From Crambe crambe (Eukaryota; Porifera; Demospongiae; Poecilosclerida; Crambeidae): a stretch of DNA of 64,000 nucleotides. Of this stretch, positions 37,311 to 45,980 are shown piece after piece (position 1 is the stretch's first letter; the number at the start of each line of letters is the position of its first letter). Under the pieces are notes generated by a model. The model did no database searches. It had not been told where the DNA came from and saw only the letters and a program-made list of their open reading frames with translations. Location of the stretch: the NCBI GenBank assembly GCA_963924555.1, contig OZ004598.1, positions 3,496,501 through 3,560,500 on the forward strand, read 5' to 3'. The translations under genes and the position numbers were made by a program.

Positions 37311-38329
37311 CTGTATATCTATAATGCAATAAAATTAAAATAAAATGGATGATGATTCTTGATTCTTAATTATTTAGCTACATGGAGCTCATGGTTTTTA
37401 ATGAAGGTTTAATTTGGGTATCAGAGGTAGCTATAGCCTTATGCAATGTGGGGACTTTCTGGAATCACAAGAATGATGTCAGAATTAGCTATGGGGCACA
37501 TTGGCAAGCCTGCAAACAACATTGCCTGCATAGCTATAGTTGTAGCAATGCTGACCCTGTACCTACCTACCTACCTAGCTCACATGTGACATGAACAGCT
37601 GCATGTGCAGCTGTTATGCTAGTACCATAAGCTTTCTTTTGAGAATGCATGATAATTATTAATTCTTGGAGCATTGTGGAATAGGAAAATCATAATCTAC
37701 CAAAGTCCAATGTATATAGCTATTATACCAACTAGCGAACTAGCTATAGAGTCCAATACTGCATTATAGCCTATGTGACAACATTTAAAGTTTTCTTTTG
37801 TTATGGCTGATGCTTTACAATAAAAATTTCTGACTTTTGAGCAAAAGTAGAAAGTGTGAATTACGTTTGATTTCTACCCTCGACTGTCACATATAGTAGC
37901 TATTATTTCAAAAAATATACTTGGTAAGTGAGTACCTGATGAACCAGTTGCAGCTGTGCTGGGTGACTGTGGTTAAAATAATGGATACTTAGCCTCCTAC
38001 ATTGTAGCTACCTAGCTATACACGAGGTGCTAGTGGTCCAGAATCAGAATGTGGATAGGAGGAACACACAGTTTATACAATAATATTTATTATAATGTGT
38101 AGGCTAGTTGTAAGTTTTTCAAGTGTATATCTACATAGTTAGCTAGATCTATATACCTGCTGATGAAGGAGAGGCAGAAGCGACAGAAAACATCTTTTCT
38201 GGAAATCAAAATGATTAGAATAGAAGCCTTGCCATGAGTCAGTTCCCTCTGAAATGGAAGTAGCTATTGACCCCTTTTTTGTGTTGTAGCTATTCTTATA
38301 GCTAGCTCATCCATCCAAACTTACCCTCC

Positions 38330-38577
38330 TTGATTGTAGAGGCAATGGTCGTGTGTCCCCTTTCTTCTAGTTTTGTGACTAAACTATCCCAGCTTGGAGT
38401 GCCACTGTAAGCTTTAACCTCATCGTCGCCTCTCAGCCATGCTGCAATCATGTCTTCCGGAAGCAGTTTCATCTTATTCAGTCTTGCTCTGGATAATCCA
38501 AGTGATAGCCCCAGTCTTATCACATCAGCATCATCTAACTCTCCAAGGTAGTCTGTGACTTTAACAAGGTCAGCCAT
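38330..38577 (-). CDS. Death-fold domain exon (N-terminal) of probable adaptor
   Basis: From ATG at 38577 the frame reads MADLVKVTDYLGELDDADVI, RLGLSLGLSRARLNKMKLLP, DMIAAWLRGDDEV and SWDSLVTKLEERGHTTIAST, a compact Death domain of ~85 residues. A GTAAGT donor follows at about 38329 in phase 1. It is followed on the same strand by small exons and the second Death-fold exon. A two-Death-domain adaptor would be unusual. Lies immediately outside the left inverted repeat of the kinase-bearing element. Confidence 0.65.
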
Positions 38578-38852: not shown

Positions 38853-38950
38853 GTATGGTGGCCGAGAAGGGTCACCCGCGACCGCTTCGCAAATATTCAC
38901 TGCCGCCCGCGGTATCCATAATACCGCCAGCGGTACCCCCCCACCATAGA
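38853..38950. repeat. ~100-bp G+C-rich inverted-repeat element
   Basis: It starts TATGGTGGCCGAGAAGGGTC and ends CCACCATA. Its first 20 bp match the start of the adjacent long inverted repeat (TACGGTGGCCGAGAAGGGTC), so it is probably a non-autonomous relative of the 5.5-kb element. Confidence 0.55.
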
Positions 38951-38960
38951 CTATAGAGGT

Positions 38961-39080
38961 TACTACGGTGGCCGAGAAGGGTCATGTCGCTCTGCCGCGC
39001 CGACTTAGCGGCCGCGCGGTACTTGAGCGGCCGATCGGCCGATCGAGCGGTGACGGCTAATTGGAGAGAAATGTTTAAAT
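38961..39080 (+). repeat. left terminal inverted repeat of 5.5-kb element
   Basis: Strongly G+C-rich compared with surroundings, with internal GATCGGCCGATC palindromes. It ends 33 bp before the kinase ATG, so it must carry the kinase promoter or 5' UTR. Confidence 0.9.
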
Positions 39081-39113
39081 ATTGCAACCACGTGTTCACA
39101 ATCAGCTCGCTTG

Positions 39114-42100
39114 ATGGCAGACTCACACTCTCCTGGATCACTGCTACTAGAGATGAGTCAGGTGCTACACGACAAGGCAAAATCATTAAAAGCCTCTAAG
39201 TCAAAGAAAGTCAGGTCTGTTGGCTTGGATGACACTTCTGAAGACGAGAGAGAAGGTCAGTTATATAGCTAGTTGTGGGGAAGGTTTTACTTTAAAATGA
39301 AGGTGTGTACTTTGCAGATATACTTGTTAGAGCACACAAACTACAAAAAAAATTGAAGTCTAAACCTAAACTTGGCAATGACATTGTGCTAGTAAGTGAG
39401 GTACTGGAAAGAAGTTGCATTGATATGAATGTTATTTCAATATAGATAGCTATATGTAAGATGCAAGAAGGTCGACAGGGTGTATATAGTAAAGCCAAGT
39501 CCCCTTACATTGAAATGAGTGTCAGGCGGAGTGACTGCTATAAGGCGGTTACCAAAAAAGCCGCAAAAAAGTGCCATCTAGTTTACCATGGAAGCAACTC
39601 TCTCTCTTTTTAAATTGAATGGAGCACGTATTTTGGATGAGGAAATCACTGTAGGTGGCAAAACTAAACCGTGGACGATGGACAATTATATACTTCTAAT
39701 GAAAAAGTCGCCAAATAATATAAAGTTGGGTGTTGGTTGCATTACACCGGACGATGATAGGTTAGTACCTTGGTCCTGCTGCATGGTATAATTCTGTAGT
39801 GCATAGAATAAAGGGCTTTGTATCAATACTATAAAATTTCTCTATGCTTAGCTACTGCAAATTTAATTTTTTAGGAATCTGATGATGAAGCAAGTAATGG
39901 TGCATCTGGTATGCTGCATGTGAATCTTTTTTTTTTATGTCAATTATTATGTAGGTCATAGGTTTATGATTAGTTTTCTGTGGGGATTTATTGTAGCAGC
40001 TGATAATCAATTAAGTTGCTATTAATGATTATTGTGTAGTTTCAGAAGTGCACTATGAGACCTGTGGTGATGAAAAGTTGACTGGTAAAGCTAAGTTTTT
40101 TCTTATTCAAGTTATCAGATTGTTACCAACCTTTAGTTCTTTATACTCCTGTATTAATGGATGGAGACAGGAGGTTTATAAAGCCTGTTGATAGGAAATT
40201 CTTAGGCCAGCTTGGTGTGTATCAGCCCGAAAATGATGGTTACCAAGTAGCATCCTTTCATAAAGGTATTTGAGGGCATAATAATATGTAGTATCTTGGA
40301 TCATAATTTTACTGGCTTTAGGAAATGAGATAATATTAAGTCCTTTCGTGGATACTGCTGATAATGTGTTAATTACAATAATGATAAACTTAGACACTAT
40401 ATTGTGTATCATCTACACATGCTGGCTCACAGTATACTTGGTCTACCATAGTTGGAGAGCCTATGGAATTCCCCTCAACCCCTGTTATTTATGTGAATAA
40501 AGGGGGTCTATACCAATGTATTGTCAAGTTCAAAGAAAAGGAAATCAAAGGGAAATTAGTGACTGTTCGTGTTGATGTTGGTATGTTGTGTGATTATACT
40601 GCAGAAGTATTATTCAATTAAGTGATGCTCTTGCTTTTTAGCATCTCCTCAATCTTCCAGTACTGAAAAAAGACACCGTGTGCATGATGGCCCCCCTTCC
40701 AGCGGAGAGCACCTGAGGGGAACTCCCCAACAGGGTCCCAGTGTTAGTGTCAGTGCAGATTCTGCTGTGTCCAGTGCTGGATCGAGTTATGTGGCTTCCA
40801 CAAAAGTGTCAGTTCCTTCCACAAAGGTGCCAATCTTAGCCACTCAAGCACCTTGCACTTCCAGTCTAGACTCCTGTCAAGGTGCACAAGTTATTTATGT
40901 TTATATGTAATTACTTCCATTGCATAACTGTGTAGTCCTGCATTTCTCAGAGAGCGAGATTTCTAGTGCAACAAGTGGTTATGCACAAGAGAGATTGTTG
41001 GGCAGTGGAGGGTTTGGTGTTGTCTATAAAGGTATCCTCAATGGTTCATATGTTGCCATCAAGAAATTAACTGAGGTAATTCTAATAGTTATAATAATAT
41101 AGTGCTTTCAATTGGTCACTTTCAGGATGGTGCATTAGCTCTTGCTGGTGGTCAGGAAAAGAGGTTATCAGATTCATTCACTCTCTCTGGCCTACTTGCC
41201 AGTGAAATCAGAGCCCTGACGAAGTATAGATAATAATGCCATAGATACATAGTTTAAATTTTGGTAGTTACTGCTTACAGATGCCGCCATCGCAATTTAG
41301 TGGACTTGATGGGATTTTGCCTTTCTCCTCCTATGTTGGTATATGAATATATGGAGCAGGGAAATCTTTATGATCAAATTTTTAACAAGGTATAGTATAT
41401 TATTTTTCAAAGTCATAGATTTGAAGCTAATTTAATCACTACAGAAAGCTCCTCCCTTAACCTGGCGACAAAGATCTGTGATTTTGAAGGATGTCTGTCG
41501 TGGTTTGTTATGGCTTCATGGTGCCAATCCCCAAGTAGTTCATGGAGATATTAAAGCGTATGTGGACTCTATTACTCATTGTAATATTGCATTCATATTC
41601 TCTATCCAGGGCCAATATACTCCTGGATCAGCATTTGACTGCAAAACTGGGGGACTTTGGTTTCACCAGAGAATTTCCTCAGGTCGTTGGAGGGCGAACC
41701 ATGATAACTGCACCAGTAGTGGCCAAGTCATTGGGGTACTGCCCTCCAGAAATGGATACTTGCCACTTATCACCAAAGAGTGATGTTTTTTCTTATGGTG
41801 TTGTGAGTTAATAATGAAAATAGCTTATTATTATACATGCATTCTTATTCATTTAGGTAGCTCTGGAAACATTTAGTGGACAGGAAGCCTATGACAAGGG
41901 AAGGGTTGATCCACTTCTGGTAAGTCCATCTTATCCCATTTCTGTTCAAATATGCACAATAGTAGTTAGGTGGACAGGAATTCTGTGTTCTGGTACTTAG
42001 TCTAACCATACAATAATTATGCTAAGGCTCACCCCACAATGCAAAAAAATAATTTTGTCCAGACCGAGCATCTTGATGAAGCCAGAAAGAGTGTGAATGG

Positions 42101-42303
42101 GTACAAGAGCGTGGCTGATCCAAAGGCTGGTGAGCTGCCACATTACCTGCTTCTTCTCTATTATAAAATTATAGAGCAGAGCCTCTTGAAACACAGCAAA
42201 TGTCCTTCATCTAAAATGGTAAACCTTTGTACTCTGTTCTAGATAATAATAATAATTTCAATTATTGTAGTTGATGCAGTGGTGGTGTGAAACAAACTTC
42301 TAG
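39114..42303 (+). CDS. Pelle/IRAK-like protein kinase with Ig-like domain, ~16 exons
   Basis: ATG at 39114 ([16 protein letters not shown]). Exons 1-3 (39114-39255, 39318-39391, from 39446) encode a basic leader and an unrecognised ~90-aa domain ([20 protein letters not shown] ... [20 protein letters not shown]). Exons at 40143-40535 give an Ig-like module ([13 protein letters not shown] ... [10 protein letters not shown]), then a Ser/Thr/Pro-rich linker. The kinase domain has [11 protein letters not shown] (41001), VAIKK, a helix-C SEIRAL, HGDIKAANILLD (41541, split by an intron) and GDFGF (41653), stop at 42303. The catalytic Lys, Asp, Asn and DFG are present; HRD is HGD, as in IRAK/plant receptor kinases (non-RD). 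There is no Death domain, signal peptide or membrane span, so it is probably cytosolic. One apparent +1 frame change lies at ~39581-39612 in a CT/T run. Encoded inside the TIR-bounded element. Confidence 0.82.
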
Positions 42304-42415
42304 TATCTCTACCATTATAAAACTCTTTCAAAACAGTATAGCTAAGAATTCTGTATCAGATTCATCATAAACTTTGTGTTGTAGCTACTGTAAGAAATTT
42401 AGAATAAATCATCTG

Positions 42416-44203
42416 CTACCAAAGTTCAATGTGGTGAACTAGTTTGATATAAACATTCTGACAGTTATTGTGAGTGATATCACCCTCACTCAAGTGCAAT
42501 TCAGTCTCCAGAGCCCTTCTTGCAACAGTCCTAAAGAAATTTGGACACAGCAATGGTGCAGGCTTTGACTCTAGCATACTCTGCCCACAGGCTACAATCA
42601 ATGGATTGTAGCTGGTCTTCTGAGCCTTGAAACAAAACATGGTTACCAATGAAACTAAACTCAAAGCAGCAGACATACCATACAAGTCTGGCATATCATA
42701 GATGTCAATGGGACGGCCATGTGGAGTGTCTACAGTATGATTCTTTCTTATAGGATGATTATTCCAATCTCTGACGAAAGCCTCCAAATCTTTATGTAAA
42801 AGGTTTCCAAACACATAACCCAAGGTATATCTGGAGTTCAAAAGTGAGACCCAGCTATAGAAAAGACATCTGCATTATCAACCTGTGAATATTGTTCTTG
42901 TCGAATAGTCCATCTGTCAGAAGGTCCTTGATCATAAACAAGACAATCAACAAAAGATCTCCCACTAACTCGTATACCTACCCTGCACAATGTTATCCAC
43001 CAATCTGTTTTAAATCTCCTCAACTGGGCCCAAAGAGACTCAATTCTCTAATAAGATACTGTGATTACTATGTGGAAACTTTTGTAATAATTATTAATTT
43101 GCAGTATTAGATGTTGAAGGTCCATATATATAAAACTCTTACAACCGGCCAGTGAATCATTATGGTTCATTCGGAATGCTAAGTGAACTTTAGCAAGTTT
43201 GCAATTCTCAGTTCCGCAATCACATCGCACAACTTTAGGACAGCCTAGTCAAATACAGCTAGTTTATTCATGCAACCAAGCATTTGTACCTTAATATACC
43301 TCCACAGCTCTCCACACATTCTAAATAATATCGTGAAATCACCCTCGGGTCTTGATTTGTTGAGGACAGTTTCAGCCATAAAATCTTCCTAGAAAACCTA
43401 ATGGATACATGAACAGTAGCTACCAAGACTACTAAGATATATATTAAACAAGCATCAAAACATACCCATCGATGCAACCGTGAATGGAGAGTCCATACGG
43501 AGTGAGCTTATCATAACCATCAACATGCCATAATTGATTAGGTCCCTAATTATAACAGCTATACCTTTAATAATCCATACAATGATTATGGCTAGCTCAT
43601 TAACCTTGCACTTATATGATCTTCTTTTCAGGCGCCTGCTCTTCCTCTGCTCTACTCCCTCTGGATCCAATTGTCTCAGCAGCTGCATAACTGTATCTCT
43701 ATGATCAATAATTGCTAGATTCTATGAGGTTCTTTAATTAAAGGAAGTAGTTATAAACCTTCTCAATATTATCTTATATTTAGTCCTGAGTATCCTCCAC
43801 AATGCTCGATAGCCACACAACTTATCAGGTGACTGCAATAGAAGCTAGAACATGTACACATAACCATTTCATTTTAACACAACTTTACACCAATAATATT
43901 CATAAGAACTTGTATTAGAGCTTTAAGAGTATCTTCTGGTGGATCAGTAGTGCGTCTCTTAAGCCCTAGCTTTCGAAACTGCCGCTTTAACCAGGACATA
44001 CTGTAAGTGGGAAAATGCAAACTCAATACATAGCAGGCAGTGGTTGTGTGCCGTTTATGCTCTCCTTTAGTGTGCCACTTCATCAAGGATCTAGAACCCC
44101 ATCTATGTCTATGATAAGCTAGTGCTTGTATGACTATGGCTGCTTCATCTATATGACATGCCATACCTTTTTGTGACTCCATGTACCAAACATAATCTTT
44201 CAA
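42416..44203 (-). CDS. integrase-core DDE transposase, multi-exon
   Basis: Minus-strand exons give, in order: SWLKRQFRKLGLKRRTTDPP (helix-turn-helix-like start, ~44000), LLRQLDPEGVEQRKSRRLKR (~43660), LWHVDGYDKLTPYGLSIHGC (~43520, first Asp), RKILWLKLSSTNQDPRVISR (~43350), VVRCDCGTENCKL (~43220, second Asp), RIESLWAQLRRFKTDWW (~43040, Glu) and FVRDWNNHPIRKNHTVDTPH (~42790). This is the retroviral-integrase-like DDE fold used by some eukaryotic DNA transposons (Ginger/IS3EU-type; superfamily not settled). The 5' part may extend to a short exon near 44310. Coding looks largely intact across GT-AG introns, though not every junction was resolved. Convergent with the kinase gene. Confidence 0.8.
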
Positions 44204-44390
44204 GAATTACTTTGTACGGCCTTCCAGTATAAAAATATTCGATTAGGACTTCTGGGTAGGAAATAAACTACCATATCTAATCTAGAAGTCGCCTGCAAAC
44301 ATAGCCTTACCATCTGTTACAGCAGCATTCATTATGCATATGATAAGCATACAGACACCGTCGCATCTATTAATGGTCGCATGCGCAGTT

Positions 44391-44504
44391 TTTAAAAATT
44401 TCTCTCCAATTAGCCGTCACCGCTCGATCGGCCGATCGGCCGCTCAAATACCGCGCGACCGCTAAGTCGGCAGAGCGACATGACCCTTCTCGACCACCGT
44501 AGTA
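44391..44504 (-). repeat. right terminal inverted repeat of 5.5-kb element
   Basis: Inverted counterpart of 38961-39080, inner end adjacent to the transposase 5' region. It lacks a GCGCC segment present in the left copy. Confidence 0.9.
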
Positions 44505-45795: not shown

Positions 45796-45980
45796 GGTAA
45801 ATTGGGGGGATTCTGAATGGTGGGGTAATTCCCAATGGTTCAATACTTCTGAAAGTACTGAGACTTCTGAGCTCAAAGGGAAGATTTTATCTTCCAACTT
45901 TGAGCTCAGGATTCTCAGTAGTTTCAGAAATATTGAACCATTCGGAGTGACCCCGCCATTCAGAATTGCCCCGCTTTACG
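45796..45980. repeat. foldback element, ~85-bp arms
   Basis: Left GATTCTGAATGGTGGGGTAA... and right ...CCCCGCCATTCAGAATTGCC are inverted, with inner GAGCTCAAAG/CTTTGAGCTC pairing around a ~15-bp loop. Lies at the 3' side of the hAT pseudogene. Confidence 0.85.

Follow-up and report, generated by a model that had tools for sequence, protein, structure and literature searches.

We analyzed a 64,000-nucleotide stretch of the genome of the sponge Crambe crambe (GenBank assembly GCA_963924555.1, contig OZ004598.1, positions 3,496,501 to 3,560,500 of the forward strand), referred to here as the window, in which an earlier note had proposed a DNA transposon encoding an IRAK/Pelle-like kinase beside its transposase. 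Our results support that proposal: window positions 38964 to 44501 are an IS3EU-type DNA transposon, 5.5 kb in length, that contains two convergent spliced genes, a kinase gene of 16 exons on the + strand and a transposase gene of 12 exons on the - strand. Gene models were built by reading splice sites and by comparing copies and families. The element is organized as follows.

38964..39085, + strand: left terminal inverted repeat, TACGGTGGCCGAGAAGGGTC... (copy comparison, repeat alignment)
39114..40881, + strand: kinase gene exons 1-9 (39114-39255, 39318-39391, 39446-39760, 39875-39908, 40040-40084, 40119-40265, 40322-40365, 40433-40580, 40642-40881), N-terminal module and Ser/Pro-rich linker (exon model; frame disrupted in exon 3 of the window copy)
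40951..42242, + strand: kinase gene exons 10-16 (40951-41075, 41126-41223, 41281-41389, 41445-41557, 41610-41802, 41857-41919, 42063-42242), IRAK/Pelle-like protein kinase domain (exons open in the window copy)
42416..44332, - strand: transposase gene with a DDE integrase-type core, exons 1-6 (44332-44311, 44251-44167, 44000-43889, 43832-43759, 43698-43605, 43545-43466) and 7-12 (43397-43300, 43244-43103, 43047-42982, 42926-42883, 42830-42679, 42625-42416) (Pfam, copy comparison; frame disrupted in exon 8 of the window copy)
44385..44501, - strand: right terminal inverted repeat (copy comparison, repeat alignment)

The true ends of the element were placed at 38964 and 44501 because the copies on contigs C9 and C8 begin TACGGTGG and finish CCACCGTA, abutting target duplications; the TAC/GTA at 38961-38963 and 44502-44504 is a palindromic flank outside the element. 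The terminal repeats are about 120 bp long (117 to 122 bp in family A, to which the window copy belongs) and nearly identical, as had been noted from the sequence: identity in the window copy is 97% across a 37-nt stretch and 94% across an 87-nt one, and left and right repeats agree in 111 of 122 alignment columns. Each gene also starts just inside a repeat. The kinase ATG at 39114 follows the end of the left repeat at 39085, the transposase ATG at 44332 lies inward of the right repeat, which begins at 44385, and in family A both start codons lie 30 to 55 bp from a repeat. Both promoters may therefore reside within the repeats in family A. The earlier note had proposed such an arrangement for the repeats, and it fits the anatomy of this family but not that of family B (see below), in which the kinase gene is internal, behind the transposase and on the same strand.

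Beyond what the earlier note described, both frames of the window copy are disrupted. The spliced kinase frame reaches its first stop at residue 128, with the disruption in exon 3, and the kinase-domain exons, read by themselves, are open; the transposase frame stops after residue 244, owing to exon 8. Because of these two disruptions, the window copy probably makes neither protein in full, though its kinase-domain exons are open. Its flanks, GGTTAC and GTATCT, show no target duplication.

The transposase of the C9 copy matches Pfam rva_4 (E 1.4e-35), with a match to rve (E 9.9e-6) that falls under the cut-off of that family, in agreement with the claim of two convergent genes for a kinase and a DDE transposase. 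Residues D138, D197, and E238 are invariant in families A, B, and C and, judged from the motifs, are the putative catalytic triad. The frame is open in the C9 and C19 copies, encoding 392 and 393 amino acids, respectively. In the window, C9, and C19 copies, the donor site of one transposase intron is GC, where C8 has GT; the C9 copy has 492 bp extra in its second transposase intron. When viral contigs were scanned with the transposase alignment, none of 51 pattern matches was confirmed as a relative by tblastn.

Is this element mobile in the sponge genome? A search of 143 Mb in 119 contigs with the left repeat returned 10 matches, 8 of which form the paired ends of four elements that enclose the same two genes; the repeat pair is thus not a product of chance. 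All four of these family A copies carry kinase and transposase sequence.

Window: 38964-44501
C9: 905837-911993
C8: 7857756-7862316
C19: 4219953-4225602

Where bases align, the window copy shares 99.6% identity with the C9 copy, 99.4% with the C19 copy, and 97.5% with the C8 copy. The genome holds three more copies with both genes, a recovery that the earlier note had named as support for its proposal. In the C19 copy, the left repeat is missing its outermost 44 bp, and both frames are open. The C8 copy lacks 1.1 kb of the N-terminal part of the kinase, and its transposase is disrupted from exon 2 onward. An older copy on C3, 87% identical, retains parts of both genes. The other two repeat matches (C19:4213418-4213462 and C19:4216598-4216642) are short, 86% identical, and in the same orientation, and lie 3.2 kb apart a few kilobases to the left of the C19 copy. 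A fragment at C1:6695320-6697046, which is a mosaic or partial copy, has 99% DNA identity to a 188-bp stretch of the family A kinase and 85 to 90% protein identity over the N-terminal module.

Perfect 6-bp target duplications flank the C9 (ATGTTG) and C8 (CGCTAG) copies. Such duplications were found in five of the six copies read at both ends (C9, C8, the family B copy on C20, a family B derivative, and the family C copy on C10), the window copy being the exception. The joined flanks of the C9 copy, as query, match many copies of a repeat that are free of the element: 24 of 44 matches extend 40 bases or more to either side of the junction, and 8 of these reach at least query base 291; these matches were read as coordinates, with target spans several bases off the query span. 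The joined flanks of the C8 copy match a duplicated site, 82% identical and about 2.4 kb distant, in which the alignment crosses the junction with one diverged 6-mer there. These matches are empty sites, paralogous rather than orthologous. The checks that the earlier note proposed on further copies, target duplications, and empty sites are thus positive within this genome.

We then considered the kinase itself. The 678-amino-acid model of the C19 kinase matches Pkinase (E 2.3e-33), and the Pfam matches are to PF00069/PF07714. Reading 42130-42174 as an intron was rejected, as this in-frame 45-bp piece encodes a region present in family B; without the false intron, the kinase C-lobe is complete and the C19 protein has 693 amino acids. 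In the alignment, inspected by eye, the glycine-rich loop, the VAIK lysine, the αC glutamate, HxD, DFG, the APE-like motif, and the subdomain XI arginine are all found in the kinases of families A, B, C, and D. The APE-like motif reads PPE, APE, or PSE across these four kinases; the family F kinase has YGD plus a stop. The A to D kinases thus keep the catalytic motifs of an active protein kinase and are predicted to be active.

In the PDB, the family A kinase is matched best by PBL2, IRAK1, and IRAK4 and the family B kinase by IRAK4 (E 3e-42). The aligned kinase domains are 34 to 39% identical to those of IRAK4, IRAK1, and PBL2 (34 to 36% to IRAK4). By PDB ranking the domain is closest to the IRAK/Pelle/receptor-like kinase group, within which the tree does not fix its exact branch. 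IRAK and Pelle carry an N-terminal Death domain as their docking domain; no Death domain was found in the 678-amino-acid model (Pfam, E up to 0.5). About 100 residues of the N-terminal module are shared by families A, B, and C and a further locus, E (24 to 38% identity to A). The A and B modules match no Pfam family above cut-off, no PDB chain matches the module convincingly, and the locus E module has a subthreshold match to DUF6038. The segment before the linker looks weakly Ig-like (C..W..YxC) in locus E only, with Pfam Ig_2 at E 0.016, below cut-off, and weak filamin matches in PDB (E 0.012 to 0.38).

Is the kinase confined to family A? The same kinase is present in at least four other families, whose transposases are 51 to 71% identical.

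Family B, C20:1692117-1698877: ends TATGGTGGCCGAGAAGGG; repeats 224/246 bp; duplication ATTACT; transposase followed on its own strand by module and kinase
Family B deletion derivatives: C21:2611815-2614277 (L074), C18:1600334-1602953, C8:9049429-9052036, C18:2600754-2603444, C6:6743625-6746006
Family C, C10:4842758-4849848: ends TATGGAAGCCGAGAAG; repeats 199/202 bp; duplication CTTTTT; genes convergent
Family D, C13, left end 6000915 (left end alone read): transposase frame broken
Family F, C12:3072376-3076219: kinase with one stop; IS3EU end on the 5' side; no listed transposase match within 7 kb
Family F, C12:4087945-4091675: kinase beside transposase, both broken

A family C copy on C9 has an open transposase and an open kinase domain. 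Family B has many shorter relatives; the five derivatives are end pairs 2.4 to 2.7 kb apart that enclose kinase exons with little or no transposase. L074 is 2,463 bp long, with the duplication GATCTC, only a piece of the transposase, and a broken kinase.

We quantified how often kinase and transposase occur together from protein searches of the genome, in which about 150 of 164 kinase matches and about 150 of 169 transposase matches were listed; all statements on neighboring matches refer to those listed. Counted one row per locus, these gave 129 kinase and 97 transposase rows, the 21 and 53 rows omitted being further exons of included loci. Of the 37 kinase loci that share 43% or more identity with the element kinase, 22 lie within 7 kb of a transposase match, compared with 0 of 92 loci below 43%; the sequence within 7 kb of a listed transposase match is 0.94% of the genome. 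Clusters of other kinase genes, 33 to 38% identical (C12:710-816k, C13:2190-2456k, C9:129-212k and 8245-8355k), are likewise without an IS3EU transposase match within 7 kb. A group of transposases at C11:5405650, C16:1808412, C21:3489371, and C6:8328793 shows 51 to 63% exon identity, and three of the four have no kinase match of at least 43% within 7 kb; the C21:3489371 transposase lies about 7 kb upstream of the window.

Locus E (C5:3342109-3345602; L057) has the same N-terminal module and kinase, no transposase match within 7 kb, and no IS3EU terminus in the 3.3 kb read, and is possibly a host relative or the source of the element kinase. A genome search with IRAK4, which works exon by exon and so disfavors multiexon genes, returned no element kinase among the matches listed (for example, C19:3866646, 51% over 84 residues, and C15:2554633, 40%), which shows that IRAK-like genes also belong to the host itself.

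Kinases of the different families are 38 to 63% identical in amino acids. The kinase-domain exons of A, B, and C agree in number and phase, D and F have the same set, and two of these exons are always 193 and 63 nt across all five families. Differences at codon positions 1, 2, and 3 amount to 0.38, 0.28, and 0.64 between A and B kinases and to 0.40, 0.26, and 0.67 between C and D kinases, a pattern close to that of the A and B transposases (0.36, 0.19, and 0.59). These codon-position differences show that the kinase sequence is under constraint.

Maximum-likelihood trees were built from the transposases and from the kinase domains of A, B, C, D, and F together with IRAK4, IRAK1, PBL2, and three host kinases; the rows of family F, which is broken, are partial. 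Within the element families the two trees share the topology ((A,F),B),(C,D). Support values in the kinase tree (Shimodaira-Hasegawa-like approximate likelihood ratio test [SH-aLRT]/bootstrap) were 88.6/82 for A+F, 98.2/95 for A+B+F, 95/93 for C+D, and 90/86 for the element kinases against the six others; in the transposase tree they were 93/74 for A+F, 92/92 for C+D, and 13.7/41 for the placement of the outgroup. Because the two trees agree and the exon structure is shared, one capture before the split of A, B, C, D, and F would be the simplest reading.

On balance, we think it probable that the locus holds one copy of an IS3EU-type transposon that was mobile recently and whose kinase was acquired before the families split, with both genes kept by purifying selection and the kinase regulating transposition. 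The observations beneath this reading are the repeats, 6-bp duplications, empty sites, and copies, the presence of the kinase in at least five families, its catalytic residues and exon structure, the trees, and the constraint. The kinase looks like a long-standing functional gene of the element rather than a passenger, since the loci of at least 43% identity pair with a transposase, the trees agree, and the codon positions indicate constraint. The anatomy shows that the transposase cuts at TAYGG..CCRTA ends and makes the 6-bp duplication, as in IS3EU. After a single capture before the five families separated, transposase and kinase would be produced together; the N-terminal module would bring the kinase to a partner, most likely either the element's transposase or a protein of the host's chromatin or DNA-repair machinery; and phosphorylation of that partner, whether the transposase or a host factor limiting transposition, would favor or time transposition. 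The parallel divergence of kinase and transposase suggests a shared task. We therefore favor the kinase as a putative accessory regulator of transposition and not as a Toll/IL-1 receptor kinase. More tentatively, this may be a transposon clade with its own signaling arm, in which an IRAK-type kinase that has stayed in step with the transposase, and that has a dedicated N-terminal sensor or docking module, reads or alters the state of the host cell (damage, stress, or innate signaling) and, through phosphorylation, licenses the timing of transposase action. If so, kinase acquisition would be a recurring IS3EU strategy, adopted once with alpha-kinases in fungi and once with a Pelle-type kinase here.

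Several observations weigh against the regulator reading. For 15 of the 37 related loci, no transposase match lies within 7 kb of the kinase (4 of these sit inside family B repeat pairs), and the family B derivatives are no argument for selection, because L074, the one read, has a broken kinase. Among the four family A copies, an uninterrupted kinase frame occurs in C19 only, the copy whose left repeat is short by 44 bp at its outer end; the C9 kinase is disrupted in exons 3 and 12, thus in the kinase domain too, and the C8 kinase is also disrupted within that domain. Locus E, with the module and without a transposase, indicates that a host gene of this type may exist, and the kinase tree includes three host kinases only, with no host IRAK orthologue. 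Synonymous change is saturated in nearly all pairs: the Nei-Gojobori method (NG86) gave a synonymous divergence (dS) for 1 of 13 pairs and hence no ratio of nonsynonymous to synonymous divergence. Support in the trees is moderate (90/86 for element kinases against others), the outgroup of the transposase tree is poorly placed (13.7/41), and two unrooted five-leaf trees match by chance 1 time in 15.

Could the kinase instead act on host defense? As a counterdefense or immune mimic, it would phosphorylate or titrate innate-signaling or silencing proteins of the host so that the element persists, with transposition itself untouched. That the nearest solved relatives are plant PBL2, IRAK1, and IRAK4 points in this direction, as does the likely role of the TET/JBP genes of fungal DNA transposons in escape from silencing, according to the accessible text of PMC12730594. 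However, an IRAK-like sequence is uninformative about substrate, and congruence with the transposase tree fits a role internal to the element as well or better. The immune-type role put forward by the earlier note is unsupported because no Death domain was found, and the N-terminal module is without a convincing Pfam or PDB match. We regard the counterdefense explanation as unlikely.

Each IS3EU family might also have separately taken up a related host kinase, such as that of locus E, in which case the constraint would reflect host history. The pairing of module and kinase in locus E, with neither a transposase match nor an IS3EU terminus in the regions examined above, agrees with repeated capture, as does the lack of host IRAK genes in the kinase tree. 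In opposition to this, the element kinases are set apart at 90/86 from the three host kinases, IRAK1, IRAK4, and PBL2, they branch as the transposases do, and their exon phases match, which leaves repeated capture improbable. A captured passenger, carried by chance without function for the element, would account for the disruption of the kinase frame in three of four family A copies and for the deletion derivatives; yet the kinase is kept at 38 to 63% amino acid identity with catalytic residues intact in A to D and codon-position constraint, and it shares exon structure, the module, and the pairing of 22 of 37 against 0 of 92. This explanation, largely refuted by the constraint, is very improbable. 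Host domestication, raised in the earlier note, with the repeats as remnants and the kinase serving the host, is scarcely credible: only the open kinase-domain exons of the window copy speak for it, and it is contradicted by the disrupted full frame, the near-identical family A copies at four different sites with target duplications and empty sites, and the several other families.

The surroundings of the element contain further small features.

38854..38948, strand not assigned: short nonautonomous element of about 95 bp with family B ends (TATGGTGGCCGAGAAGGGTCACC), a neighbor and not part of the element

It lies 15 bp to the left of the transposon and, by eye, likewise lacks a 6-bp duplication. 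To the right are an inverted-repeat structure (44519-44554/45455-45490, 36 nt at 89%) and a hairpin (45797-45979, 82-nt arms at 85%), perhaps more small repeats. A small gene at 38302-38577 has no Pfam match.

Returning to the transposon with a kinase as its putative regulator, we compared it with known systems. A Polinton/Maverick was rejected for an element of 5.5 kb with two genes only; Polintons are large elements with PolB and capsid genes that share the 6-bp duplication and the rve integrase. An alpha-kinase-bearing IS3EU was also rejected: the element has no PF02816 gene, and the 7 genome matches to PF02816, on three contigs, are not near a listed transposase match. Like IRAK/Pelle and plant receptor-like kinases in its kinase domain, the protein differs from them in that no Death domain was found and in being encoded by a transposon. 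The accessible text of PMC10045372 describes IS3EU as a superfamily in Repbase that is marked by TA..TA ends and by duplications of 6 bp. As far as that source and PMC12730594 describe the superfamily, the sponge elements resemble it in their TAYGG..CCRTA ends (TACGG..CCGTA in A, TATGG ends in B and C), 6-bp duplications, inverted repeats longer than 30 bp (117 to 122 bp in A, 224/246 bp in B on C20, 199/202 bp in C on C10), and IS3/IS481-like DDE core. Unlike the IS3EU elements described there, they have as second gene a eukaryotic protein kinase of the IRAK/Pelle-like kind, whose N-terminal module has no Pfam name. Fungal TET+ IS3EU elements, according to the available parts of PMC12730594, have an alpha-kinase gene that runs opposite to the transposase, an orientation matched here; theirs is another kinase family than PF00069/PF07714, and they also carry a TET/JBP gene, unlike the sponge element. 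Styx, an IS3EU-like fungal element, has four open reading frames (ORFs) in the portion of PMC10853768 available. The generalization that cut-and-paste elements normally carry transposase only is therefore too strong for IS3EU (PMC12730594, PMC10853768, as far as accessible). Among the papers listed by full-text searches of a collection without Repbase entries and most subscription papers, we found none that describes a DNA transposon with a kinase of the IRAK/Pelle type.

Eukaryotic cut-and-paste transposons are mostly seen as a transposase and its ends; here, an IRAK/Pelle-type kinase is a conserved second gene in several families of one genome. IRAK-like genes in such genomes may accordingly be transposon genes rather than immune genes, which calls for caution. 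Oxytricha TBE elements (Tc1/mariner) have a 57-kDa zinc finger-kinase ORF under purifying selection, according to the accessible text of PMC4724952 and PMC12242761; as described there, they are likewise DNA transposons with an accessory kinase-domain ORF under purifying selection but differ in transposase superfamily, host, and N-terminal domain. Seen alongside the alpha-kinase IS3EU elements of fungi and the TBE kinase of a ciliate, the sponge element suggests that kinases have been taken on more than once by transposons for control over their own mobility. With a natural element that was mobile recently, this hypothesis can now be tested directly.

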